DNA from: Candidatus Bipolaricaulota bacterium
Lineage (GTDB): Bacteria > Bipolaricaulota > Bipolaricaulia > M55B111
Direction of reading: 5' to 3'
NCBI GenBank assembly: GCA_018335015.1
Contig: JAGXKX010000010.1
Location: forward strand, 1-36,662
Length of the DNA stretch: 36,662 nucleotides
Positions 822-20,376 of this stretch are shown in pieces. Within the stretch, counting starts at the first letter, position 1; the number at the start of each line of letters is the position of its first letter. The position numbers and the translations under genes are program-made. The notes beneath the pieces were generated by a model. It saw only the letters and a list, made by a program, of their open reading frames with translations, did not search any database and had not been told where the DNA came from.

Positions 822-1030
822 CTCAGATCTTCACCAATGTACGAAAGCAAAACTTAATTTATGAAGGCTGACTGCGCTTTTTACTACAAAAAGCTCTCTT
901 TCACTTACCTGGCTGCCGGGTTTTGTCTACTGCTAAGTTTTAAAAGGTTAAACCAGTTGCCAGGTAAGTGACAGAGAGCAGTTATTCGGGCCAGTGGGAT
1001 AAATTTGTCGCTGGTTGTTGAACTGAGCTT
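822..1030 (+). repeat. Two-stem palindromic element, copy 1
   Basis: Inner stem 893-913 pairs with 959-979 (20 of 21 positions complementary). The core between starts TTACCTGGCTGCCGG and ends CAGTTGCCAGGTAA. The outer arms (CTCAGATCTTCACC at 822-835 and the TTGAACTGAGCTT end near 1018-1030) pair only partly. The same core occurs at 13.6, 13.95 and 19.9 kb. This copy lies downstream of the DoxX-like gene and next to an MFS gene remnant, between two 3' ends. The family is not recognised; it is ERIC/BOX-like in size and in being intergenic. Confidence 0.8.
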
Positions 1031-2727: not shown

Positions 2728-4194
2728 TCAAGAATCAGATTTTTGATAATACTCGCGAGCATCTTCGACAATCCTATCGAGCTCCTTCTTCGTTTCCGGA
2801 TCCATATCAACCGGTTTCGAGTTTTCCAAAATCGATTTTGCCTTATCCCTGGCAACTGTACTGATCTCCTTCCTGCCCTTTGTTATCCAGTTTTCCCAGG
2901 TATCCCTGTTGCTGAGTTGCGACTGGTACTGTTCTCCCTTCCTTGCGTGACGAGCGGTGTGTTTTTCCCGCAGGAAATCGCCTCGGGGCCCGACGGAATC
3001 TATCAAATCCCGGGCAATGGTCTCCTCGCTTATCTCGAAACCGTCCAGGGTATCCATAATCATTCCGAAAACCTCGTTATCAATTACCAGTTGGGCAAGA
3101 CTGCAGCTTTTTAGCGACTCCAGTCCTCCCGCGCCGGAAAGGAAATCAGCGCCCGCCAGGGCGGGTACGATGCCGTTCATCGATTTTTCGTAACCCTGTT
3201 GTTGGTCCATTATTTTCGAGTCGGAAGACAAGCCGTAAACGTCGGAAGGAATATCGTACCTGTTCAGGAGTTGAACGGCGCACGCGGAGGCCATACCAAG
3301 TTCGTTTGTGCCCCAGGAGACATAGGACGTTCTCATGTCCATGATGGATAATCTCGGACCAAGGACGGTTGGTAAACCGGGCGATATAGCCTGGGCAATG
3401 ATCAATCCCGCGATCAGTTCCGCGTTCTGCTGGACGAGGGCACCTGCAAAAGTAACGGGAGAAGTTCCACCAGTGGTTGGCGCCGGCAATATCTTTAGCG
3501 GCAAGCCCTTTCTCGCTCCTTCAATTAACGCCTCGGAGCTCAACCTGTCGAAGGAGAGGGGGCTGATCGGCGAGATAGAAATTACGAAACCTGGCTTGTC
3601 TTTTAACTCTTCTTCTCCTCCCGCCAGCGACCGGAAGATCCTGTAAAGAAAATCTACTTCCCTTCCTGAATCAACAGGGTTTTCGACTATCTTTTCCGTA
3701 TTACGAACCGCCGCGTTTACCATTTCTACCTGTTCTGATCCAGGAGTTACGTCAGTGGGTGATACCATTGGGGAATAGGCGTGGATATTATCAAGGCGAC
3801 TGATTACCCTTGCTCCGTTCTTAACGTCGGCAATTTTCGCCTCTCTGCGCTTTCCACTATCCAGATCTCTGATATATGACGGTCCTCCCGTAGTATGGGT
3901 ATGGACCGTATCCCCTGTTACCCTTATCTCTTTTCCCTCGTTCCCTCTTTCGTACAGACTGAAACCCGCAGGAGCAGTTTCGATTGAACTTTTAACCAGT
4001 CCGGGAGGGAACTTTACTATGCTGGAATCCTCCTCGATCTTGGCTCCCCTGTCGATTAGCATCTCCTGGAGTTCGTTGTTTTCTACCAGTACTCCGGTAC
4101 GCCTCAGGACTTTTAGCGTTGATTCGTGCAGTTCGTCCAGTTCCGATTCCGATAGAAGTTCTAGGTAATGTCTGCTATCACTGTGATCGATCAT
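2728..4194 (-). CDS. MttB-family methyltransferase, non-pyrrolysine type
   Basis: A 488-residue protein of the trimethylamine methyltransferase (MttB, COG5598) superfamily. Recognisable are the N-terminal LHESTLKVLRRTGVLVEN region, the HTHTTGGPSYIRDLDSG strand, and SDSKIMDQQQGYEKS and ALAGADFLSGAGGLES in the barrel. The frame has no internal TAG, so it is not the pyrrolysine enzyme. Characterised non-Pyl relatives (MtgB, MtpB, MtcB) move a methyl group from glycine betaine, proline betaine or carnitine to a corrinoid protein. No corrinoid protein gene is adjacent. SD GGGTGA is 7 nt before the ATG. The gene lies in a run with a C45 hydrolase and an Opp/Dpp-type uptake system, suggesting that the methylated substrate enters by that transporter. 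Confidence 0.85.
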   Translation of the reverse strand: MIDHSDSRHYLELLSESELDELHESTLKVLRRTGVLVENNELQEMLIDRGAKIEEDSSIVKFPPGLVKSSIETAPAGFSLYERGNEGKEIRVTGDTVHTHTTGGPSYIRDLDSGKRREAKIADVKNGARVISRLDNIHAYSPMVSPTDVTPGSEQVEMVNAAVRNTEKIVENPVDSGREVDFLYRIFRSLAGGEEELKDKPGFVISISPISPLSFDRLSSEALIEGARKGLPLKILPAPTTGGTSPVTFAGALVQQNAELIAGLIIAQAISPGLPTVLGPRLSIMDMRTSYVSWGTNELGMASACAVQLLNRYDIPSDVYGLSSDSKIMDQQQGYEKSMNGIVPALAGADFLSGAGGLESLKSCSLAQLVIDNEVFGMIMDTLDGFEISEETIARDLIDSVGPRGDFLREKHTARHARKGEQYQSQLSNRDTWENWITKGRKEISTVARDKAKSILENSKPVDMDPETKKELDRIVEDAREYYQKSDS

Positions 4195-7906: not shown

Positions 7907-8161
7907 GGGTGGTCGTTTTAACACCTTTTTAGAAGGAAAAAGTAACTTACTTATATTTACCTTCAACAGCCAATGTATAAACGATATATTAAAAAATAAT
8001 CTCTATTTTGTATTATATTTTATTTAATTCAGAAATCAAACTGCCCCCGGGGTGTTGACTCGGCTGGAGGAGTAAACTCCGGCTGATATTAATATTATTT
8101 TTGGAGAAACTATCGAAGCTACTGCGATAACGTAGGGCCCTGTAGGTATTGAAAAAACCTG

Positions 8162-8258
8162 GACTCAAGATCTTTCACCGTCGTATGAAAGTGAAACTTA
8201 ATTCGAGAACAATAACTTTTTACCAGGTGCTCTTCCCCCTTGCCTGGCTGCCGGATTA
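8162..8258 (+). repeat. Two-stem palindromic element, truncated copy (left half)
   Basis: The left arm matches copy 1: ACTCAAGATCTTTCACC at 8163-8179, then GAAAGTGAAACTTAATT, and CTTGCCTGGCTGCCGGATT at about 8239-8257. The loop, right inner arm and right outer arm are missing. The break is followed at once by a fragment of an IclR gene, so the element was probably cut by the same rearrangements that made the debris downstream. Confidence 0.65.
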
Positions 8259-8282
8259 TCTCAACTCCGAGGGAGTATTTCG

Positions 8283-8562
8283 GGATTCGACCCCGAATTC
8301 GATAACTAATGTCGGGCAGTTAAGGAGAGAACTGGAGAAAGTTCGAGAGAAGGGTTGGGCTTACTCCGATGAAGAGTTTGCGGAGGGTGTAAGAGCGATT
8401 GCCGGACCGGTATCCGGGGCAAGTGCGCCGGGAGTACATCCACCGGACGAATACTGGGAGCGAATCCGAACTATTTGCGATAAATATGGCGTATTACTGA
8501 TAGTAGATGAGGTTATGAGTGGAATGGGTCGAACCGGCACGTGGTGGGGGATCGATCATAGT
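8283..8562 (+). pseudogene. In-frame chimera: IclR regulator C-terminal piece joined to class III aminotransferase piece
   Basis: The frame open from 8149 to 8721 changes identity along its length. About 8283-8412 reads STPNSITN..LRRELEKVREKGWAYSDEEF..GVRAIAGPV, the effector-domain pattern of IclR-family regulators. From about 8407 it reads PVSGASAPGVHPPDEYW, then ICDKYGVLLIVDEVMSGMGR, the PLP-cofactor-binding region of class III aminotransferases, including the Asp of DEVMSG. The two share the residues PV at the joint. Neither an IclR DNA-binding domain nor the aminotransferase catalytic Lys is present. After about 8562 the frame no longer resembles a protein. Codons upstream of 8283 belong to the truncated palindromic repeat. 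Confidence 0.65.
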
Positions 8563-8578
8563 TCCGTCGAACGATTAG

Positions 8579-9067
8579 GAACCGGAATTCGAATTAAACG
8601 AGATAGATCCTATCAGGGACCGGCTGGAAATCGGCCTGGCCAAACTGGCATTGAAGAAAGGATTTCCGGTACTGGCGATCTGTCGTGGTATTCAAGTTTT
8701 AAACGTGGCAGCTGGCGGTAATCTCTATCAGGATCTGGGCCAACAGAGGGATAACGCACTAAACCACTATCAGGACGCTCCGAGATGGCATCCGACCCAT
8801 AGGGTCAAAATAGACCGGGGAAGTGTTCTATTTGACGTTATCGGGAAGGAGAAAATCAAGGTCAACTCCCTGCACCATCAGAACGTTATGGATGTTGGAA
8901 AGGGGTTCGAGGTGACCGCCCGGAGCAGTGACGGATTGGCCGAAGCCATAGAGCATAAGGAAGCCACGTTTCAATTAGGACTCCAGTGGCATCCGGAAGC
9001 AATGGTGGGGAGAGACGAAAATTCTTATCTAATATTTTCTCGGTTCGTCGAAGCTGCCGAAGGATAA
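8579..9067 (+). pseudogene. N-terminally truncated peptidase C26 (PuuD-like gamma-glutamyl hydrolase)
   Basis: After an in-frame TAG at 8576-8578 the frame reads PEFELNEIDPIRDRLEIGLA and then FPVLAICRGIQVLN, with the nucleophile Cys in AICRGIQ, LHHQNV, and the catalytic WHPE near the end. These are the hallmarks of class I glutamine-amidotransferase-like C26 hydrolases (PuuD, YvdE). About 163 codons remain of the usual 240-255; the N-terminal third is missing and is replaced by aminotransferase debris in another frame. A TTG at 8651 is the only plausible start and would remove more of the fold. It is probably dead. PuuD-type enzymes work with aminotransferases in polyamine breakdown, so the ancestral cluster may have been of that kind (inference). 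Confidence 0.65.
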
Positions 9068-11296: not shown

Positions 11297-11977
11297 ATGA
11301 GAGTTATAATAGCCGGACTTGGTGATATAGGAACTCAGCTCGCCGAGGATCTTACGGCCCGTGAGGGGTTTGAACTGGTTCTCGTGGATCAGGACGAGGA
11401 AAAATGCGAGGCCCTTTCGAGCGAATACGACGCCCTGGTACTTCACGGCGACGGTACAGAGCCCGAGCTGCTGGAGAGCGCCGGAGCCAAACAGGCCGAT
11501 GCCCTCATAGCGACCACGAATTCCGATGCCTTAAATATGGTAATCGCCGTGCTCGGTAAGAAATTTGAGGTTCCCAGAGTCGTCGCCAAACTCAATAAAA
11601 CCAGCCTGAGAACGACCGCTCGGGAGTTAGGAGTAGATCATGTTATCTCCCCGAAAGTCTCGGCGGCAACAGAAATATCCAGCTTGCTCCACGGCTATGA
11701 CGTCCTGGACTTTTCCCTATTGGTTCAGGGTGGAGCGAGGTTGGTCGAGATATCTCCAGGAGAGCTGGCTGGCGAAAAAATAAAAGACATCGATCTACCG
11801 GAAGGTACGTTGATAACATCGGTACTCCGCGAGGGCGTAGCAATTATTCCCCGGGGAAGCACGGAATTAAGTGAAGACGATATCCTGATAATAATAACAG
11901 AGAACGAGGAGAAAGAAAATAGGATAAAAGAACTATTCGGTGAGCTCCAAACCGGCCAACGACCCGAAAAAATGTGA
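11297..11977 (+). CDS. trkA: Trk/Ktr potassium-uptake regulatory protein, TrkA (first copy)
   Basis: A 226-residue protein with one RCK_N Rossmann domain (residues 1-about 120; G7-x-G9-xx-G12 in GLGDIG and acidic D31 in LVLVDQDEE) and one RCK_C domain (about 140-220, ending GVAIIPRGSTELSEDDILIII). It gates a TrkH/KtrB channel from the cytosol in response to bound nucleotides; RCK_C domains of relatives bind c-di-AMP or ATP/NAD. Single RCK_N-RCK_C length fits the KtrA-like form. ACAGGAGG precedes the ATG. Its likely partner trkH lies downstream in the opposite orientation, so the pair is not co-transcribed. Confidence 0.9.
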   Translation: MRVIIAGLGDIGTQLAEDLTAREGFELVLVDQDEEKCEALSSEYDALVLHGDGTEPELLESAGAKQADALIATTNSDALNMVIAVLGKKFEVPRVVAKLNKTSLRTTARELGVDHVISPKVSAATEISSLLHGYDVLDFSLLVQGGARLVEISPGELAGEKIKDIDLPEGTLITSVLREGVAIIPRGSTELSEDDILIIITENEEKENRIKELFGELQTGQRPEKM

Positions 11978-12077
11978 TACCTTGTTTTTAGTGAACTGAT
12001 TCAGAAGTTTATTCTCTATAACCAGCAACCAATTTCTCGGCTTTTTTCTGTTCGGTGAGAAGAATTTCTGAAAGCTT

Positions 12078-13505
12078 TTATCGCCAACTTCCCGGGTAGA
12101 GCGCTACCAGTACAGGGGTGATTTCCAGCCTGCCGAGCCACATATTGACTATCAAGATTAGTTTTGAAACGGGATTAAGGTCCGGTGAAGTTAAGCCGAC
12201 TGACATCCCCACTGTTCCTTCTGCGGAGGCGACCTCAAACAAGGAATTTACCAGGCTGGCTCCTTCCAACCATATCACGGCCAGCGTTGAGATGACCAGT
12301 ATCAGTAGATACGAGAGGAAAAATGCAATTATAGATTCGGCTTCTTCCTTACCCACCGTGACATTTCCAAACCTAAGGGGTAGCTTGGCCTCTTTTGGCA
12401 GGAGTGACCGGAAGAAGACCAGTCTTATCAGCCCAAGAAGTATCAGCAATCTAAATAACTTGATACCTCCGGCAGTCGAGCCGGTACCTCCCCCAATGAC
12501 CATTAAAACAATAGTGACGAACTTGTCACCGTCGGGAAGGGCTCCAGTCGGGACGGTATTATATCCTGTAGTCGTTATGGCCGTGGCAGTCTGAAATATG
12601 CCAGGGACGACGTTTGTCAGGCTGGGACCGAAGCTGATGATGAAGATCAAAGATCCGAAAAGAACCAGAATTATCAGAGCTCGGACCTGGTGGTCTTCGA
12701 AGAACTCCCGGACTTCGCCTTTTACGGCCAGGTAATAGAGGGGGAAGCTGATCGCACCCATTATCATGAATAACGTGACAGTCATCGAAATCGCTTCGCT
12801 ATCATAAAAACCGATGCTTTCGGAGTAAAGCGAAAATCCGCCGGTAGGTATAGTCGTCAAGATGTGGATTAAAGCGTCGTACAGGCCCATTCCGGCAAAG
12901 TAAAAGGAAAGGAAGCCTATCACGGTTAAGGAAAGGTAGACTTTGATTACGGCTTTCGCCGTCGAGATCACGCTACCCATTATGTTTGCTTCTCCAAACT
13001 CGGACGAATAAAGTTTAAAAGCGCTTTTTCCTGGTCTTAGAAGTATAGCCAGGGTAAGGACAATAATACCCATTCCTCCCAGCCACTGAGAATAAGCTCG
13101 GAAGAAGTGAAGCGATGGTGATAGCGTGGTTTCGTTAACCATGGTAAGGCCGGTGGTGGTAAACCCCGACATGGCTTCAAATAGACCGTCCAGGAAGGTT
13201 TTTATTGGAAGGAACGGCACCGCTCCGATGAGGCTGAATAAGAGATATACCAGCGCGGTAACGATCAATGCGTCGATCAAGTTCATTTCCTCGCTGTTAA
13301 ATAAGTCCAGGTGCCAGACCCCAAAACCAATTACGATCGAGCCAAAGGCAAGTCCGCCAAATAGTTGAGTGTATAGAAATTCCCGAAATGCAATGGAAAC
13401 AAAGAATGGAACGAGTAATAGGAGTCCCAATAGCCCGAGGGCACCGAATAGTTCGTGGAGAACGTTATGCCAGTTTGCCGTTCTTAAATGTTCGCTAAGC
13501 TTCAT
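12078..13505 (-). CDS. trkH: Trk/Ktr potassium channel subunit, TrkH (first copy)
   Basis: A 475-residue membrane protein with the four-repeat pore of the Trk/Ktr/HKT superfamily. The filter loops are SGFTTTGLTM, TTIPTGGFSLY, TAITTTGYNTVP and SAEGTVGMSVGLT; the fourth is of the KtrB-like TVGMS form. The C-terminus GRLEITPVLVALYPGSWR is typical. It imports K+ (often with Na+ or H+) under TrkA control. The leader has no visible SD before ATG (CAAACCAATG) and, if transcription starts near the TATAAT at 13735-13740, contains palindromic element copy 2. Confidence 0.92.
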   Translation of the reverse strand: MKLSEHLRTANWHNVLHELFGALGLLGLLLLVPFFVSIAFREFLYTQLFGGLAFGSIVIGFGVWHLDLFNSEEMNLIDALIVTALVYLLFSLIGAVPFLPIKTFLDGLFEAMSGFTTTGLTMVNETTLSPSLHFFRAYSQWLGGMGIIVLTLAILLRPGKSAFKLYSSEFGEANIMGSVISTAKAVIKVYLSLTVIGFLSFYFAGMGLYDALIHILTTIPTGGFSLYSESIGFYDSEAISMTVTLFMIMGAISFPLYYLAVKGEVREFFEDHQVRALIILVLFGSLIFIISFGPSLTNVVPGIFQTATAITTTGYNTVPTGALPDGDKFVTIVLMVIGGGTGSTAGGIKLFRLLILLGLIRLVFFRSLLPKEAKLPLRFGNVTVGKEEAESIIAFFLSYLLILVISTLAVIWLEGASLVNSLFEVASAEGTVGMSVGLTSPDLNPVSKLILIVNMWLGRLEITPVLVALYPGSWR

Positions 13506-13561
13506 TGGTTTGGTTGAAACTTTGCCTGGTTTGAGGTTTGTACATCAACCGATTTATCACT

Positions 13562-13714
13562 CTCAGATCTTTCACTACTAGCTCTCTACCCCTTACCTGG
13601 CTGCCGGATTTCGTCTCCTGCTGAGTTTTAAAGGTTAAATCAGTTGCCAGCTAAGGGGTATAGAGCAGTTATCCGAACCAGATAGCTAAATCCGCCGTTG
13701 GTGAAAGATCTGAG
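13562..13714 (+). repeat. Two-stem palindromic element, copy 2
   Basis: The shortest full copy. The outer stem is perfect over 14 bp: CTCAGATCTTTCAC at 13562-13575 with GTGAAAGATCTGAG at 13701-13714. The inner stem 13581-13601 pairs with 13646-13666 with two mismatches; the part next to TTACCTGGC is CTCTACCCC here, against CTCTTTCAC in copy 1, and the opposite arm changes to match. Core orientation is as in copy 1. It lies 57 bp upstream of the trkH start, so it may be in the trkH 5' leader. Confidence 0.85.
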
Positions 13715-13734
13715 TTCCTTTTACTTGGCCAAAT

Positions 13735-13740
13735 ATTATA
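13735..13740 (-). promoter_or_regulatory. Possible -10 box for trkH
   Basis: Perfect TATAAT on the minus strand, with no convincing -35 at 17 bp (TACGGA). If used, the transcript would begin near 13728 and carry the whole palindromic element copy 2 in its leader. Confidence 0.3.
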
Positions 13741-13857
13741 ATCAAAGCGTCCGCTCATCCGTACATTATTTATTGGTTACCTAAAAACTAAGTGATGGTT
13801 GTAAAAAACAATTCACCTGCAAATATTACTAAAATTAGTCGAAAAACCAAAGGGAAA

Positions 13858-13881
13858 GCCCTGGAATTATTTTTTCAGGGC
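13858..13881. other. Short hairpin between repeat copies 2 and 3
   Basis: GCCCTG at 13858-13863 pairs with CAGGGC at 13876-13881 around a T-rich 12-nt loop. The roughly 200 bp between the two repeat copies hold no gene. The role is unclear. Confidence 0.35.
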
Positions 13882-13919
13882 CCGGCTCTGGGATGGAATT
13901 GCCCACTTTAACCTTAACA

Positions 13920-14116
13920 CAGTTCTTTCACCATCCCCGTACATCATTGTTTTGTCCTCCTGTGCCTCCTGCCTATTACCTGGCAACTGATTTAACCTTA
14001 AAATCCTACCAGTAGACGAAATCCCGGCAGCCAGGTAATAGGCAGGAGGCTTGAACTAAAAAATATAATGATTTCTCCTGTCTTTCACATTGCTTCCGAC
14101 GGCAGTGAAAGAACTG
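13920..14116 (-). repeat. Two-stem palindromic element, copy 3 (inverted relative to copy 2)
   Basis: The outer stem is CAGTTCTTTCAC at 13920-13931 with GTGAAAGAACTG at 14105-14116, perfect over 12 bp. The inner stem 13964-13984 with 14030-14050 is perfect over all 21 bp. Its variable part is CTCCTGCCTA, unlike copies 1, 2 and 4, yet fully matched by the other arm. The core is in reverse orientation. It lies in the 3' flank of the Usp gene that ends the kdp operon. Confidence 0.88.
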
Positions 14117-14193
14117 AGCTTAAAACATTTTCGGTGGTTCCTACTTTAATTTTTTTAGAAGTGGAGCCGGAAAAACTTCGCTGGCACGCCTTG

Positions 14194-15093
14194 CTAAGTG
14201 GAGGCAACGAGATCCGTCAATGCCTTTATCAACCCTTTCCCCCAGGCGACCATTTTGTGCTCGCTCCCCTTAAACATCAGCACCGAGGATTCGACCCTGT
14301 TTGTCAGGTTGTCGGCGGTACGTCCGAACAGGAACCTGTTAAATACCCACTCCCTACCGGGACCGAGGATAACAAGATCGGCGTCATGGGAAGCCGTTAG
14401 CAGCCCACTGAGAACGGAATTCGAAAGAAGGACCGTCGTTTCAACGTTTGCCGTCATCAATTCGAGTACTTTCTGAAGATACTGGGTTGCCTCTTGTTCG
14501 CTTCGTTCGCTCGGTTTTCCTGTAAGTACATGTACGAGCTCGGCCTCAACTTCCACCTCACTCATTATTCTGTCCAGCAGGGCTAACCGTTTTGGCCGTG
14601 GCTGGTTTGGGCCCACGGGCATCAAAATTTTTTCGACTTCTCCAAGGTCCTTCCGGGATTTCAGTACCCCGACGTCGCAGGAGGCCTTGTGAAGTACCTT
14701 ATTTACTACTGAACTCCTCCTGACTACTACAGGGGTAATCCGACCAAACCACCCCATCAATATAAAGTCCGCTCCGATTTCTTCGGCGGAGTCGATTATT
14801 GCCCCCGGAATCGAACCGGACGTCACGGTAAGAGGCTTTGCCACCCGCCCGAGTTTCTGGGCATAGTGGGTGGTATCCATGACTAATTCTGATCCTTTTC
14901 GCCAGGATCGCTCCTCCTCGGGGAAAGATCCCTGTCGGGTCACGTTCAAGATATGGAAAGTAGTTTGATGGGTAGTAACGTGATGTGCCATGGTAACTAA
15001 CTGCCGGGCTGTTTCCGGATTGGCGATAGTGATTAAGACGTCCGCGTAGTTCAATTCTTCAGTTGTTGGTTTTTTTACTTGGTTTTCGTTCAT
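14194..15093 (-). CDS. Tandem universal stress protein (UspA-type), last cistron of the kdp operon
   Basis: A 299-residue protein with two Usp folds. Domain 1 (about 16-150) has ILMGWFGR followed by RRSSVVNKVL in the nucleotide-loop position; domain 2 (about 155-285) has ILGPGREW then FLFGRTADNL, nearer to the G-xx-G-x9-G-S/T pattern. The gene begins 1 bp after kdpC stops, so it is translationally linked. Usp domains occur in KdpD sensors and beside cation or amino-acid transporters, where they bind ATP or cyclic nucleotides. No kdpD or kdpE gene lies in the window; that this protein tunes Kdp is an inference. No membrane segment. Confidence 0.8.
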   Translation of the reverse strand: MNENQVKKPTTEELNYADVLITIANPETARQLVTMAHHVTTHQTTFHILNVTRQGSFPEEERSWRKGSELVMDTTHYAQKLGRVAKPLTVTSGSIPGAIIDSAEEIGADFILMGWFGRITPVVVRRSSVVNKVLHKASCDVGVLKSRKDLGEVEKILMPVGPNQPRPKRLALLDRIMSEVEVEAELVHVLTGKPSERSEQEATQYLQKVLELMTANVETTVLLSNSVLSGLLTASHDADLVILGPGREWVFNRFLFGRTADNLTNRVESSVLMFKGSEHKMVAWGKGLIKALTDLVAST

Positions 15094-15094
15094 A

Positions 15095-15850
15095 TTATCC
15101 GGACTCCAGTATTTTTTCTATTTCTATATTTAACGATAACACGTTCACTCTTTCCAGACCGTACAGACCGACGAATTTATTCTGAGTATTATCATCAATT
15201 AACTCTCTCAGTCTTTCCGGGTCAATCCCCGTTGCCTCGGAGACTCTCGGTACCTGTAAGTAAGCGGATTTCGGAACTATATGGGGATCGAGAGAAGACC
15301 CTGATTCGGTGACTAAACTTACAGGGACTTCTTCCGGTTTTACTCCCTCTTCTTCTAGCCTTTCAAGAAGTTCGGTCGATCGCCGGGCTAGCTTTTCGTT
15401 TCCCGGCGACAGGTTGGCACTGCCCGAGTCCATTCCGTCGTAGTTCTTGGAAGAGGGTCTGGGGTGAAAGTATTTATCGGAACTGAAGGGTTGACCAATC
15501 AACCTGGAGCCGACGACCTCGTCGTTATGCTCCACCAGGTTACCCTGGGCGGGTCCCTGCCAGGCAAGGTTTCCTATACCCGTCGTGGCAAGGACGTATA
15601 GAACGCTGGTAAGCAGAAAAGTTATTAGGAGGGTTCGCAGGCCGATGCCAAACATCCTGGAGATACTTAACTCGTCCGTATCGGGGTAGGAGACTTCCTC
15701 GTCTTCCTCTATTTCTTCTTCTTCTTTGACTTCCTTTTCCTCCGATTTCCCTTTTCCCGGCTTTTCTTCTCCGACCTTTTCGCGGGCCTCCGAAGCGGGA
15801 AGTTCCTCTAGTTCTTCTTCCTGCTTATCTTCTTCGTTTTCGTGGTCCAC
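15095..15850 (-). CDS. kdpC: Potassium-transporting ATPase subunit C with acidic N-terminal extension
   Basis: A 251-residue KdpC; most are about 190. The extra part is residues 1-65, very rich in Glu and Lys (for example EEEIEEDEEVSYPDTDE), before the single membrane helix (about 70-92). The periplasmic part is normal: GSRLIGQPFSSDKYFHPRPS, YDGMDSGSANLSPGN, and VTESGSSLDPHIVPKSAYLQ. KdpC stabilises the KdpA-KdpB complex. With KdpC topology (N-terminus inside), the acidic arm would face the cytosol near KdpB. A start inside the helix region would remove the arm, but no better SD-supported start was seen. The gene starts 2 bp after kdpB. Confidence 0.92.
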   Translation of the reverse strand: MDHENEEDKQEEELEELPASEAREKVGEEKPGKGKSEEKEVKEEEEIEEDEEVSYPDTDELSISRMFGIGLRTLLITFLLTSVLYVLATTGIGNLAWQGPAQGNLVEHNDEVVGSRLIGQPFSSDKYFHPRPSSKNYDGMDSGSANLSPGNEKLARRSTELLERLEEEGVKPEEVPVSLVTESGSSLDPHIVPKSAYLQVPRVSEATGIDPERLRELIDDNTQNKFVGLYGLERVNVLSLNIEIEKILESG

Positions 15851-15852
15851 GG

Positions 15853-17880
15853 TTAGAACACCCCCACTGTCACTAGCAGCCAGTCTATTAACTTTATTGA
15901 GAGGAACGGTACTACGAGCCCGCTACCTCCGTAAATTAACATATTGCGAACCAACAATCGAGACGCGCTAACCGGCTTGTACTCGACACCCCGCATTGCC
16001 AGAGGAACAAGGAAAGGTATTATCAGGCTGTTGTAAATTAGCGAGGAGATGACCACGCTTTGCAGGGAATGGAGATTCATCAGGTTCATCTTGCCCAGCG
16101 CCGGGATGCTGGCGGAAAAAATCGCCGGCACCAGGGCAAAGTAACGGGAGATGTCGTTGGCGATGCTAAAGGTGGTAAGCGAGCCCCTGGTCATAAGGAG
16201 CTGTTTGCCTATACCGACCACTTCGATTAACTTGGTGGGATCAGAGTCCATATCCACCATGTTGCCGGCCTCTTTTGCGGCGGCGGTACCGGCGTTCATC
16301 GCAAGGCCTACGTCTGCCTTTGCAAGGGCCGGGGCGTCATTCGTCCCGTCCCCGGTCATACCCACCATGTGACCTTTGGCCTTCTCATCTTCCACCAGCC
16401 CGATCTTTTCCTCCGGCTGAAATTCAGCGTAGTATTCGTCCAACCCGGCCTCTTCTGCAATGTAGCGGGCGGTCCGTTCGTTGTCACCTGTACACATTAT
16501 AGTTTTTATCCCCATCTTCTGGAGCCTGGCTATTCTGTCCCCTATGCCTGTCTTCAGTTCGTCCTGTAGCTCAATTATACCAATCACTTTTTCATTGACG
16601 GCCAGACCGAGAGGCGTGCCCCCGGAGTCTGCCACTTCCGCTGCTTTGTCGTCCAGCTCGTCCGGAATCGAACTAGCGTAATCCCGTATTTCGTCTACGG
16701 AACCCTTCCTGATCTCAGTCCCGTCGTCGAGGTCTATTCCGCTCATACCGGTCTCGGCGCTAAATTCGATAAACCCCTCTTCGGGCAGTTCTCCTTTGTC
16801 GACTTCTATGCCTTCCTGCTCCGCCAGAGCGACAACTGATCGTCCTTCGGTTGTTTCGTCGTAAAACGAAGATTTTAAAGCGGCTTCAGCAACCTCTAGC
16901 CTGTCACCGCCACCTAAGGGAATGAAATCCGCTGCTGCTCGCTCTCCCGTGGTGATGGTACCCGTTTTGTCGAGAATTAGCACGTCCAGGTCACCGGCCG
17001 ATTCGACCGCCTTGCCGGATTTGGCAATAACGTTATCTCTCGTTACGCGAGTCATGCCGGCTATTCTTATTGCCGAGAGGAGTGCGCCGACCGTAGTTGG
17101 AATAAGACCAATTAATAGAGCAATCTGGTCCGCCACTTCCACGTTCAACCTGACGAAGTCGCCGAAAAAGGTCAGGGTGGTCACGACGAGCATGTAGATA
17201 AAGGTAAAGCTAGCAAGAAGCAGGGTGAGGGAAATCTCGTTTGGCGTCTTCTCCCGGCTGGCACTTTCAACAAGTCCGATCATCTCGTCCATAAATGATT
17301 CGCCGGCGGCAGCTGTTATCTCGATCTTTAACTGGTCGCTTAATACTTCCGTACCACCGGTAACGGAGCTTTTGTCGCCACCGCTTTGACGGATGACCGG
17401 CTCCGACTCGCCGGTTATTGCCGACTCGTCAATTGAAGCAGAACCCTCAATGATTGAGCCGTCTCTGGGGATCATGTCCCCTTCCTCGACGAAGACCACG
17501 TCACCTTTCTCCAGTTTATCGGACTCGACTTCCTCCAGGTTCGCTTCGTCTATCTCCTCGAGTGGAGCATCTTCTTCGAGCCTCTTTCCGATTACTTCTT
17601 CCTTCATCGCCCGGAGGCTCTCAGCGTGTGCTTCTCCCTGGGTTTCCGCTAGTGACTCGGCAAAAGTAGCAAATATTACTGTGAACAATAACACGACGGA
17701 GATTGCCGAGTAGTACCATCTTCCCTGGGTTCCACCGAAAAATCCCGGTACAATAGTGAGAACTATTACGATGATCGTACTGATCTCGGTAACGAATATT
17801 ACGGGGTTCTTTACCAGATATGCTGGATTCAGCTTCTTTCCGGCGTCGATGAGTGCCCCCAGTACCTGTTCTCTATCCAT
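15853..17880 (-). CDS. kdpB: Potassium-transporting P-type ATPase subunit B
   Basis: A 675-residue P-type ATPase of normal KdpB length. Visible motifs are TGES (156-159) of the actuator domain, DKTGT with the phosphorylated Asp304, the [10 protein letters not shown] region, and [20 protein letters not shown] of the hinge. The C-terminal block [17 protein letters not shown] is KdpB-specific. It hydrolyses ATP to drive high-affinity K+ uptake through KdpA. It is 6 bp downstream of kdpA and 2 bp upstream of kdpC. Confidence 0.97.
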
Positions 17881-17886
17881 TTCCGG

Positions 17887-19623
17887 TCACCACAAGGAGA
17901 GAAGTTCAGCGATCGGACCGAGCGACAGGGCGGGAATGAATACCAGCCCGCCGATTATTACCATGATTACCAGTAGCAGTACCAAAAATGGTACATTTTC
18001 AACTTTAAGAGTTCCTTCGGTCTCCGGTCGGATATTCTTCTTCGCCAGGGAGCCGGCTATCATCATCTGTAACAATAGCGGAATATACCGGGCAAGAAGG
18101 ATTACCATCCCCCCGGCTATGTTGTAAAAAACGGTGTCATCCATCAATCCTTCTAAACCAGAACCGTTATTTGCCCCCGCGGAGAAGAACTCGTACATTA
18201 CCTGGCTGAATCCGTGGAATTCAGGGTTTGTTATCGCTTCTTTGCCCATGTTAGTTACCACTGCAATTCCGGTTGGAAATAGGACAAGCGTAGGAAGCAG
18301 CAGGATGATCATCGCGGCGAACTTTATCTCGTCCGATTCCAGTTTTTTTCCAAGGTAAACAGGAGCTCGCCCGATCATGAGGGCGCCCATGAAGGCAGCG
18401 AGGAAGACGTAGGTAAGGAGGTTCATAACCCCAGTCCCCACGCCAGCAAAAAGTGAATTTAGACTCATACCTAGGAAAAGGGCTAGCCCCCCCATCGCGG
18501 TAAAGCTATCGTGCATCGAGTTAACTCCACCGTTGGTGGTCGAGGTAGTTGATACTCCCCAGAGGGCACTCAGGGTGGCTCCGAATCGGACTTCCTTACC
18601 TTCCATGTTGCCCAAGGATTGATCTATACCCAGACCTTCGAAGGCGGGGTTACCTCCCAGTTCGCCTCCAACGGCCATTGCCAGAAACACCAGTACGAGT
18701 ACCGAGACTGCTCCGACTAACACCAACCCGTGTCTTCGTTTCTTAACCCAGATACCGAAAGCGTAAAAGTTTGTTATCGTGCCTAAAAACAAGAAGAGGT
18801 TCAATACCACGTTGGACAACGGCGTCGGGTTCTCGAACGGATGGGCAGCGTTGGCGGCGAAGAACCCACCTCCATTTGTTCCAAACATCTTTATCGCCTC
18901 GTGGGTTGCCACCGGTCCCCGGGCTATCGTCTGGGTCGCTCCCTCGAGCGTGGTAACCGAAGCGGGCCCGGCAAGAGTTTGCGGGACTCCCTGGCTGATC
19001 AAAAACAGCGCCAGCACGAAACTAATCGGCAACAGAAACCTGGTCAATGATTTGACGAATACGACGTAGAAGTTCCCCAGCCTGGGATCTTCCTCGTTGG
19101 TCAACCCCCTGGCGAAACCAAGCAGTAAACCAATTCCTGTAGCGGCAGACGCGAACATTGCCAGAAGCACCGCGCCGAGCTGTGAGAAGTAAGAAAGCGC
19201 GGTCTCACCGGCATAGTGTTGCTGGTTGGTATTGGATACGAACGTCGCTGCATTATGAAAGGCGAGGTCCCAGTCGAGGTTACCTATCTCGGCGGGGTTG
19301 AGCGGAAGTCCACCCTGGAACAGGAAGATCAGATATAGGAAGACGAACAGAATCAGGTTCAGCCACAGAGCGCTCAATAGGTACGTCTTCCAGTTCATCG
19401 TGATTGAGGGATCAATTCCGGTGACCCGATAAATTAACCGCTCGATCGGTTCCAGTATTGGTTTTTCGAAGTATCGTTCCAGGTAGTCGAAGAACCCGGG
19501 AAAACCTTCCTCTACCATCATCTCTTTCCGGAATGACCATCCCAGATACTCCCCCAGGACGTAAACCAGTCCAGCCAGAATCAGGAAGAACAGGGCCAGC
19601 GGAAGAATTATTCCGAAAAACAT
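17887..19623 (-). CDS. kdpA: Potassium-transporting ATPase subunit A
   Basis: A 578-residue channel-like subunit, slightly longer than the usual 560. Filter and family motifs are SNTNQQHYAGE, TNGGGFFAANAAHPFENPTP, STTNGGVNSMHDSFTAMGG and AGANNGSGLEGL. It selects and translocates K+ in the KdpFABC complex. The ATG starts 1 bp after the kdpF stop codon (TAGCATG), so translation is coupled. Confidence 0.97.
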   Translation of the reverse strand: MFFGIILPLALFFLILAGLVYVLGEYLGWSFRKEMMVEEGFPGFFDYLERYFEKPILEPIERLIYRVTGIDPSITMNWKTYLLSALWLNLILFVFLYLIFLFQGGLPLNPAEIGNLDWDLAFHNAATFVSNTNQQHYAGETALSYFSQLGAVLLAMFASAATGIGLLLGFARGLTNEEDPRLGNFYVVFVKSLTRFLLPISFVLALFLISQGVPQTLAGPASVTTLEGATQTIARGPVATHEAIKMFGTNGGGFFAANAAHPFENPTPLSNVVLNLFLFLGTITNFYAFGIWVKKRRHGLVLVGAVSVLVLVFLAMAVGGELGGNPAFEGLGIDQSLGNMEGKEVRFGATLSALWGVSTTSTTNGGVNSMHDSFTAMGGLALFLGMSLNSLFAGVGTGVMNLLTYVFLAAFMGALMIGRAPVYLGKKLESDEIKFAAMIILLLPTLVLFPTGIAVVTNMGKEAITNPEFHGFSQVMYEFFSAGANNGSGLEGLMDDTVFYNIAGGMVILLARYIPLLLQMMIAGSLAKKNIRPETEGTLKVENVPFLVLLLVIMVIIGGLVFIPALSLGPIAELLSLW

Positions 19624-19624
19624 G

Positions 19625-19711
19625 CTAAAACCTCTCCGGAAAAATCAACACGTAACCGAGGTAAATAAAGATGAACCCGGCAACTACCGCTAGCAACATT
19701 TGACCACCCAT
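19625..19711 (-). CDS. kdpF: Potassium-transporting ATPase small subunit F
   Basis: A 28-codon gene, easily missed. It encodes one hydrophobic helix (MLLAVVAGFIFIYLGYVLIF) followed by the PERF ending diagnostic of KdpF, the small stabiliser of the Kdp complex. SD GGAGG lies 7 nt before the ATG, and kdpA starts 1 bp after its TAG. It is the first gene of kdpFABC-usp. Confidence 0.93.
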   Translation of the reverse strand: MGGQMLLAVVAGFIFIYLGYVLIFPERF

Positions 19712-19738
19712 ATAGAAACCTCCCTGGACTCAACTGTG

Positions 19739-19790
19739 GCGGAAGAATTATACCTAACAGATTACGTGATGCAAAATTTTATTCTTCCGC
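19739..19790 (-). promoter_or_regulatory. kdp promoter flanked by a 10-bp inverted repeat (likely operator)
   Basis: On the minus strand a -35 TTGCAT (plus 19769-19774) and a perfect -10 TATAAT (plus 19747-19752) are 16 bp apart, 36 bp before kdpF. They are bracketed by GCGGAAGAAT at 19739-19748 and ATTCTTCCGC at 19781-19790, a perfect inverted repeat. The placement over -10 and just upstream of -35 suits repression or activation by a dimeric regulator. The regulator is not in the window. Confidence 0.7.
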
Positions 19791-19846
19791 AATGAAATCT
19801 TCTTACCTGTAATGGCTCAAAGTTAAAGGATACTTAACTTCAACCT

Positions 19847-20041
19847 AATTCTTTCACCGCTCACGTAATTAGTTGCTCGTTCGAAAAAATCCCTCTCCCC
19901 GTTTACCTGGCAACTGATTTAACTAAAAAAATGAAGGTACCCTAAATCCCGGCAGCCAGGTAAGCGGGTAAAAGGTCCTTGAGAAAAATGGAGTCATTTT
20001 TTACCTGTTTCGTCTAGGTTGAATACAACGGTGAAAGAATT
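19847..20041 (-). repeat. Two-stem palindromic element, copy 4
   Basis: The outer stem is AATTCTTTCACCG at 19847-19859 with CGGTGAAAGAATT at 20029-20041, perfect over 13 bp. The inner stem (19898-19911 with 19955-19968) is weaker: the TTACCTGGC part is kept, and the flank CCCG pairs with CGGG. The core is in reverse orientation as in copy 3, with a more divergent loop. The right arm also holds TTACCTGTTTCGTCTA near 20001, resembling a shortened second core start. It lies between the divergent kdp and DUF4389 transcription units. Confidence 0.82.
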
Positions 20042-20376
20042 GAGTTCAATCAATTGTTACAACAGGAAGTCTTTTCGACTATGCTCTGAGCGTTGCGCTA
20101 GTATATTGGAAGGCCCATATGGATTCAAGTTTTCCGATCTCGCTGATTTTCTCACTTAAATGTCGTACTATTCTTTCCGTTTCGATCTTCGACCTAATAT
20201 TGGCAGGGAGTGGTAACGGCAATTTGTTTGGTTATTGCGGGTGGGGGAAGATGGGCCGGAATTAAGTGAGAAGGTTGTTAGAGACCCGATTTAGAACCTA
20301 CTCGTCGATATTTGAACTTTACCTGAACTATAAATAATTATAACTGTAATATCATAACTTCAAGGAGGAATAGCTA
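20042..20376. other. Intergenic region before the DUF4389 gene
   Basis: No firm gene. On the minus strand 20079-20231 is open for 50 codons and reads RIVRHLSEKISEIGKLESIW near its end, protein-like but unassigned; it could be a fragment of a nucleotidyltransferase-like or HsdS-like gene. The last 60 bp are AT-rich and hold AAGGAGG for the next gene. Confidence 0.3.

Follow-up and report, generated by a model that had tools for sequence, protein, structure and literature searches.

A family of non-autonomous transposable elements with variable, matched stems and an inverting core in Bipolaricaulota

The palindromic repeats that a first-pass annotation described in the window (the whole stretch analysed, 36,662 nucleotides of contig JAGXKX010000010.1) are members of a family of non-autonomous transposable elements (MITEs) of about 200 bp. 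The genome concerned is a Bipolaricaulota draft of 1.96 Mb in 152 contigs, a Great Salt Lake relative. We consider it moderately probable that the family is lineage-specific, that an IS701-like DDE transposase moves it in trans, and that both the covariation of an inner stem and the inversion of the core arise through template switching, with an extra constraint acting on an internal loop and a 9-bp stem. In particular, our results favour arm-to-arm copying of DNA over selection on RNA as the main cause of the covariation.

The element family and its mobility

The four full copies reported earlier are all present, with limits that could be refined, and a fifth, reduced to its left half, had been overlooked. 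The features in the window are the following:

822-1027, plus strand: copy 1, a MITE with degraded terminal inverted repeats (CTCAGATCTTCACC ... GAACTGAG), its target duplication no longer clear
892-980, plus strand: inner stem and 63-nt core of copy 1 (GCTCTCTTTCAC / GTGACAGAGAGC)
about 8165-8266, plus strand: fifth copy, truncated within the core so that only its left half is present, beside gene remnants
13562-13714, plus strand: copy 2, a MITE whose left arm is internally deleted (terminal inverted repeat to TTTCAC repeat)
13580-13667, plus strand: inner stem and core of copy 2 (GCTCTCTACCCC / GGGGTATAGAGC)
13918-14118, minus strand: copy 3, a full-length MITE
13963-14051, minus strand: inner stem and core of copy 3 (GCCTCCTGCCTA / TAGGCAGGAGGC)
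19844-20044, minus strand: copy 4, a full-length MITE
19890-19976, minus strand: inner stem and core of copy 4

By the orientation of their cores, copies 1 and 2 are on the plus strand and copies 3 and 4 on the minus strand. Copy 3 is flanked on either side by the target duplication CTTAA (13913-13917 and 14119-14123), and copy 4 by TTCAA (19839-19843 and 20045-20049).

Regarding the surroundings of these copies, the left-half copy adjoins a single ORF (8149-8721) in which partial matches to IclR_C and to a class-III aminotransferase stand back to back, apparently gene debris joined at a repeat. Two of the four full copies are placed between trkH and a universal stress protein gene; this region (11297-20044) holds potassium-uptake genes of the Trk type (11297-13505) and of the Kdp type (KdpA, 17887-19623), which, together with the universal stress protein, are fitting for a salt-lake organism. 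Elsewhere in the window, at 3129-3228 on the minus strand, there is an Rfam PYLIS_3 match (48 bits) within an MttB-family gene whose 488-aa frame is free of in-frame stops; it is probably a matter of sequence similarity only and not of pyrrolysine use.

The terminal inverted repeat (TIR) that bounds the elements, CTCARWTCTTTCACC, occurs 130 times in the window's genome with at most one mismatch, against 0 occurrences of the controls. Across the genus, 127 copies with an intact core were gathered, and both TIRs are found in 86 of them; a full copy is about 200 bp long and non-coding, and its frame is asymmetric, with about 80 nt between TIR and core on one side and about 58 nt on the other. At the centre of the element, a 12-bp stem whose sequence varies encloses a 9-bp stem that is conserved (TTACCTGGC/GCCAGGTAA). 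Inside the latter follow an internal loop, likewise conserved and asymmetric, with TGCCGG facing AGTT, a short stem (GATTT/AAATC) and a tip that varies. The core is a 63-nt hairpin standing on the changing 12-bp stem, of which 96 distinct versions were found among 116 copies, their arms staying pyrimidine-rich towards the core. Further copies in the genome are far more frequent than chance would allow: the 12-base core motif CCTGGCWGCCGG occurs 102 times in the 1.96 Mb, against once for the reversed control, and BLAST searches with copies 2 and 3 retrieved many further copies with identities of up to 99%. The statement that all copies are intergenic can likewise be extended beyond the window, as the core lies within an ORF of at least 120 aa in none of the 85 genomic copies examined.

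The core was also found in frames that do not have the usual TIRs (L061, L062, L167, L178 and L157); in the first four of these, the other frame is bordered by hairpins whose loop (GTGGGAGC/ATGGGAGC) is constant and whose stems vary. Additionally, the same TIR bounds other inner hairpins. For instance, a GCCGAGGAA[stem]AGGAATCGGC module (L224, L210, L204, L213) is present genus-wide, with 19 copies in G002, 17 in G003 and several different matched stems, and hairpins of the form CGATAG[7-nt stem]TTTCTA[stem] (L212, L193, L206), equally genus-wide, have many different matched stems and often occur twice per element. As both kinds of hairpin recur throughout the genus with different self-complementary stems, variable but matched stems seem to be a general habit of these elements, which suits a mutational cause. 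Terminator-like hairpins (TTTTTCTACAAGCCCCGTCCCTTGGGGCGGGGTTCTTGACT) also recur in several places (L037, L204, L210, L016), some of them abutting elements.

The first-pass annotation had left the choice between a structured RNA and a mobile element, and the latter part of it is borne out by TIRs, 5-bp duplications, a nested insertion and empty sites. Exact 5-bp target duplications flank 31 of the 86 copies with both TIRs, and 19 more agree at four of five positions, when about 0.08 copies with an exact duplication would be expected by chance; one copy (L033) is inserted in the core of another, with the duplication TACTA. In sister species of the same genus as the window's genome, copy 2 is absent at the matching place in G002 and copy 4 in G003, the latter according to BLAST coordinates in a region where the MAFFT global alignment is poor. 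At the site of copy 3 (window 13720-14160), both sister species carry a different element subfamily (L251, L252) whose core is reversed between them, explicable either by replacement or by an insertion hot spot, and at the site of copy 4 the sister species also hold another subfamily.

A covariance-model search of the relatives, as had been suggested, detected the core in all five of the species analysed from this genus and gave no hit in 95 genomes from elsewhere in the phylum, all of these genomes being draft MAGs in which repeats sit at many contig ends. The core is also present in named genomes of Candidatus Bipolaricaulota isolate GSL_GSL3510_5. The element has no match in viral contigs that would point to a viral origin.

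No DDE_5 transposase was found in the five members of the genus, nor any transposase in the plasmid records searched. An autonomous element between distant TIR pairs (L212 and L213 of G002) and in L070 was considered and rejected, as no transposase reading frame is found there. A candidate is provided by a genome of a sister genus (G005), one contig of which begins within a DDE_5/IS701-like transposase gene, with an exact TIR match 87 bp before the ORF, and a second contig of which starts with a transposase-like C-terminal frame, with the other TIR at most 20 bp after it. The TIR of the MITEs is therefore common to this candidate, an IS701-like gene that is split between contigs and has a TIR next to each of its ends. 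The two contigs probably carry the opposite ends of a single autonomous element, left unjoined in the assembly. The ORF scores 50 bits with DDE_5 (cut-off 27) and 73 bits with the NCBIfam IS701 model, whose curated cut-off is 170, with only 240 residues in hand.

Stem covariation and core inversion

The covariation of the inner stem that had been claimed withstands statistical testing. Watson-Crick pairs occupy 1110 of 1270 cells, against 715±17 when partners are shuffled between copies, and 143 cells of the 12-bp stem are changed on both sides, against 47.9±5.7 after shuffling; none of 500 shuffles reached any of five measures. In 48 diverse copies, 90.1% of cells are paired, against 80.3% when shuffled and 35-50% when slid. 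Within the helices, 14 of 26 pairs are changed on both sides; the 9-bp stem contributes little to this covariation, being conserved in sequence. The co-variation also claimed for the centres of the outer stem is weak, with left and right TIR dinucleotides agreeing in 58 of 104 copies when 44.5 would be expected, and a shared transposase site would explain this agreement. Consequently, outer-stem covariation was rejected as evidence for RNA, the outer stem being the terminal repeat of a transposon. It was also considered whether the core had been inserted into pre-existing hairpins, with the stem as target, and this was rejected because the stems are related to each other, are pyrimidine-rich towards the core and have a common consensus over 12 positions.

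Compensation can also be followed among close relatives. Groups of low divergence contain four private double compensations and one restoration, against 18 private single changes (counted with our own scripts and simple alignment rules), and by our estimate about 0.07 doubles would arise by chance. Among these double changes is T-A to A-T, a replacement that cannot pass through a wobble pair. Over the whole family, compensated changes are richer in transitions (152 transitions to 69 transversions) than unpaired positions (62:53, p=0.009).

Between species, 39 pairs of occupied sites are shared, with flanks matching on both sides. In 29 pairs, which are not independent of each other, our scripts counted 41 differing stem positions that are Watson-Crick in both versions (26 transitions, 15 transversions) and 128 other stem differences; our estimate from flank divergence puts the compensated differences arising by chance at about 5. 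The share of transversions among these compensated differences is similar to that in the unpaired flanks (26:15 against 62:53, p=0.36). Some of the pairs may be replacements or separate insertions and not true orthologues, particularly at the sites of copies 3 and 4.

The core can also be turned round. At five shared loci, the core is reversed between species although the direction of the outer parts is unchanged (L295 against L107/L259, L257 against L026, L264 against L102, L304/L268 against L087, and L252 against L251). Within the asymmetric frame, judged by the distances to the TIRs, the two orientations of the core are found in proportions of 45:22 in the window's genome, 21:4 in G002 and 4:4 in G003.

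Origin of the matched stems

Compensatory changes in a stem are usually taken as proof of selection for RNA structure, and the first-pass annotation took the combination of a co-varying stem and conserved loop ends as a mark of structured RNA. This reading could not be established here. The family is indeed unrecognised as far as Rfam is concerned, and a known RNA family was rejected: there is no match to the repeats at the gathering score in the window, and 15 related loci searched at E<=1 gave chance matches below threshold and nothing credible. If the inner hairpin were a structured RNA, cis-regulatory or small, carried by the MITE, selection at the locus or in the mobile lineage would keep its stem paired, which would be consistent with a conserved internal loop and 9-bp stem accompanied by a covarying outer stem and a variable tip, with a core that is more conserved than the unpaired flanks of the element, with identical cores in differing outer frames and with the family-wide excess of transitions among compensated changes, as wobble-mediated selection would give. 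Selected RNA pairing is expected to tolerate G-U over A-C on one strand. However, neither strand shows such a preference in the mismatches of the inner stem (34 G·T against 29 A·C, p=0.61), a test that is weak alone because mutations after insertion would dilute any bias, and in the core stem A-C mismatches (21) outnumber G-T (9). Moreover, the orientation of the core relative to tandem flanking genes is not significantly biased (23:13, p=0.13, with simple ORF rules in our own scripts), an inversion in place would change the transcribed strand, and 128 differences at shared sites are uncompensated. We therefore regard a structured RNA as unlikely. The lack of a strand preference for wobble pairs and of a significant orientation bias, together with the in-place inversion of the core, points to copying between the arms at the DNA level, and the roughly neutral share of transversions among compensated differences, with mismatches showing no strand bias, favours it over RNA selection.

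In the mechanism that we propose, an IS701-like DDE transposase would recognise the 15-bp TIR and make the 5-bp target duplications, mobility itself being observed and the assignment to this transposase resting on the sister-genus gene. In the DNA, the arms would behave as an inverted repeat some 21 bp long, and replication, stalling at the hairpin, may let the nascent strand switch to the other arm or to the other strand. One type of switch would copy a mutation from arm to arm, producing compensatory changes without selection, and the other would reverse the core where it stands. An additional sequence constraint would act on the conserved internal loop and 9-bp stem. In fact, every full copy retains the asymmetric internal loop, and no homogenised version of it was seen in about 115 copies, which counts against a purely neutral account; either arm copying stops short of the loop or selection keeps it. 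Template switching leaves such strict conservation unexplained, and we take it to reflect a separate constraint, which may be the binding of a protein or a requirement of transposition. The excess of uncompensated over compensated stem differences at shared sites (128 to 41) also counts against the proposed mechanism, as do the family-wide richness of compensated changes in transitions and the persistence of pyrimidine-rich arms towards the core.

It is conceivable, with a low probability in our judgement, that the 63-nt core is instead a folded nucleic-acid module of an undescribed kind, putatively bound by a protein through its internal loop, riding several mobile frames, keeping its stem paired at every locus and inverting in place. 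If this were true, about 100 intergenic sites would carry a hairpin of switchable orientation.

Recombination between the arms of about 21 bp, or a recombinase, could be an alternative source of both inversion and arm matching. A site-specific recombinase recognising the conserved TTACCTGGC arms might invert the core as in other invertible DNA, with arm matching derived from strand exchange; the reversed cores at five shared sites and in about one third of the copies, and the position of the 9-bp arms among the most conserved parts, would agree with this. However, no recombinase gene travels with the element or could be tied to it, and, since the variable 12-bp arm is external to the conserved ones, strand exchange within the latter alone would not keep it matched, for which reasons we judge this to be the least probable of the explanations. 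Hardly more probable is the idea that the hairpin forms an independent single-strand-DNA element of the REP or IS200/IS605 type, which sits within MITEs and would be read by a Y1 transposase. It would account for the cores in frames without the usual TIRs and for the recurrence in the genus of hairpins with constant loops and variable stems, but no outer frame lacking only the hairpin was seen, the foot of the hairpin does not have the GTAG tag, and 5-bp duplications are typical of DDE transposition. Ectopic gene conversion between dispersed copies, spreading matched stems and swapping cores, would explain by replacement the other subfamily at the sites of copies 3 and 4 in the sister species; nevertheless, with 96 distinct stems among 116 copies there are few donors, and conversion that relies on homology of the core would fail to reverse it inside an unchanged frame, so we give it a similarly slight probability.

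Comparison with known systems

The bacterial MITEs already described (Correia/NEMIS, ERIC, RUP, BOX and CIR; PMC10969869, PMC2229807) resemble the present family in being non-coding, intergenic and 100-200 bp long, with TIRs, target duplications and strong hairpins; they are thought to be moved in trans by the transposase of an IS, and whole Correia elements have been reported to invert (PMC10969869, PMC2229807). Unlike them, the present family has no Rfam relative, the outer frame of its elements stays fixed when the inner core inverts, and the covariation of the stem extends over about 100 copies and between species. The likeness to the IS701 family (DDE_5) lies in the TIR CTCAATTCTTTCACC found together with a DDE_5/IS701-like transposase in G005. 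By contrast, the sister genus is the only place where this transposase was found here, and there it is represented by two incomplete ends, with 73 bits against a cut-off of 170 for the whole protein. REP/TnpA-REP systems (PMC3733652, PMC8266576) are also high-copy palindromic intergenic repeats, but the present elements are about 200 bp long, with TIRs and 5-bp target duplications, and neither a GTAG nor a CGTC tag is present at the foot of the hairpin, where the conserved stem reads TTACC/GGTAA in the alignment.

The closest parallels to the behaviour of the stem are in template-switch hairpins (PMC8794818) and in yeast inverted repeats (PMC8604942), where arm homogenisation and spacer inversion occur together, a combination described as the result of template switching between inverted repeats (PMC8604942). 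Both features are found here. The inverted spacers reported are of 2-5 nt in yeast (PMC8604942) and of up to 7-8 nt in rRNA (PMC8794818), while the spacer inverted here, of about 44 nt, is much longer, and this is the main reason for caution about template switching. A mutational origin was predicted to be most strongly supported by compensation accompanied by loop inversion, a combination that was found to be extremely rare, with only six cases (PMC8794818). In contrast with the published template-switch hairpins, the present ones form a replicated mobile family in bacteria, with about 100 copies of one hairpin, many of them common to several species, family-wide compensation and inversion at five shared sites. 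Covariation alone is consequently insufficient for calling repeats in such genomes RNA families, and the present family, as a natural test of the evolution of matched arms in DNA, can measure how often covariation arises without selection on RNA.
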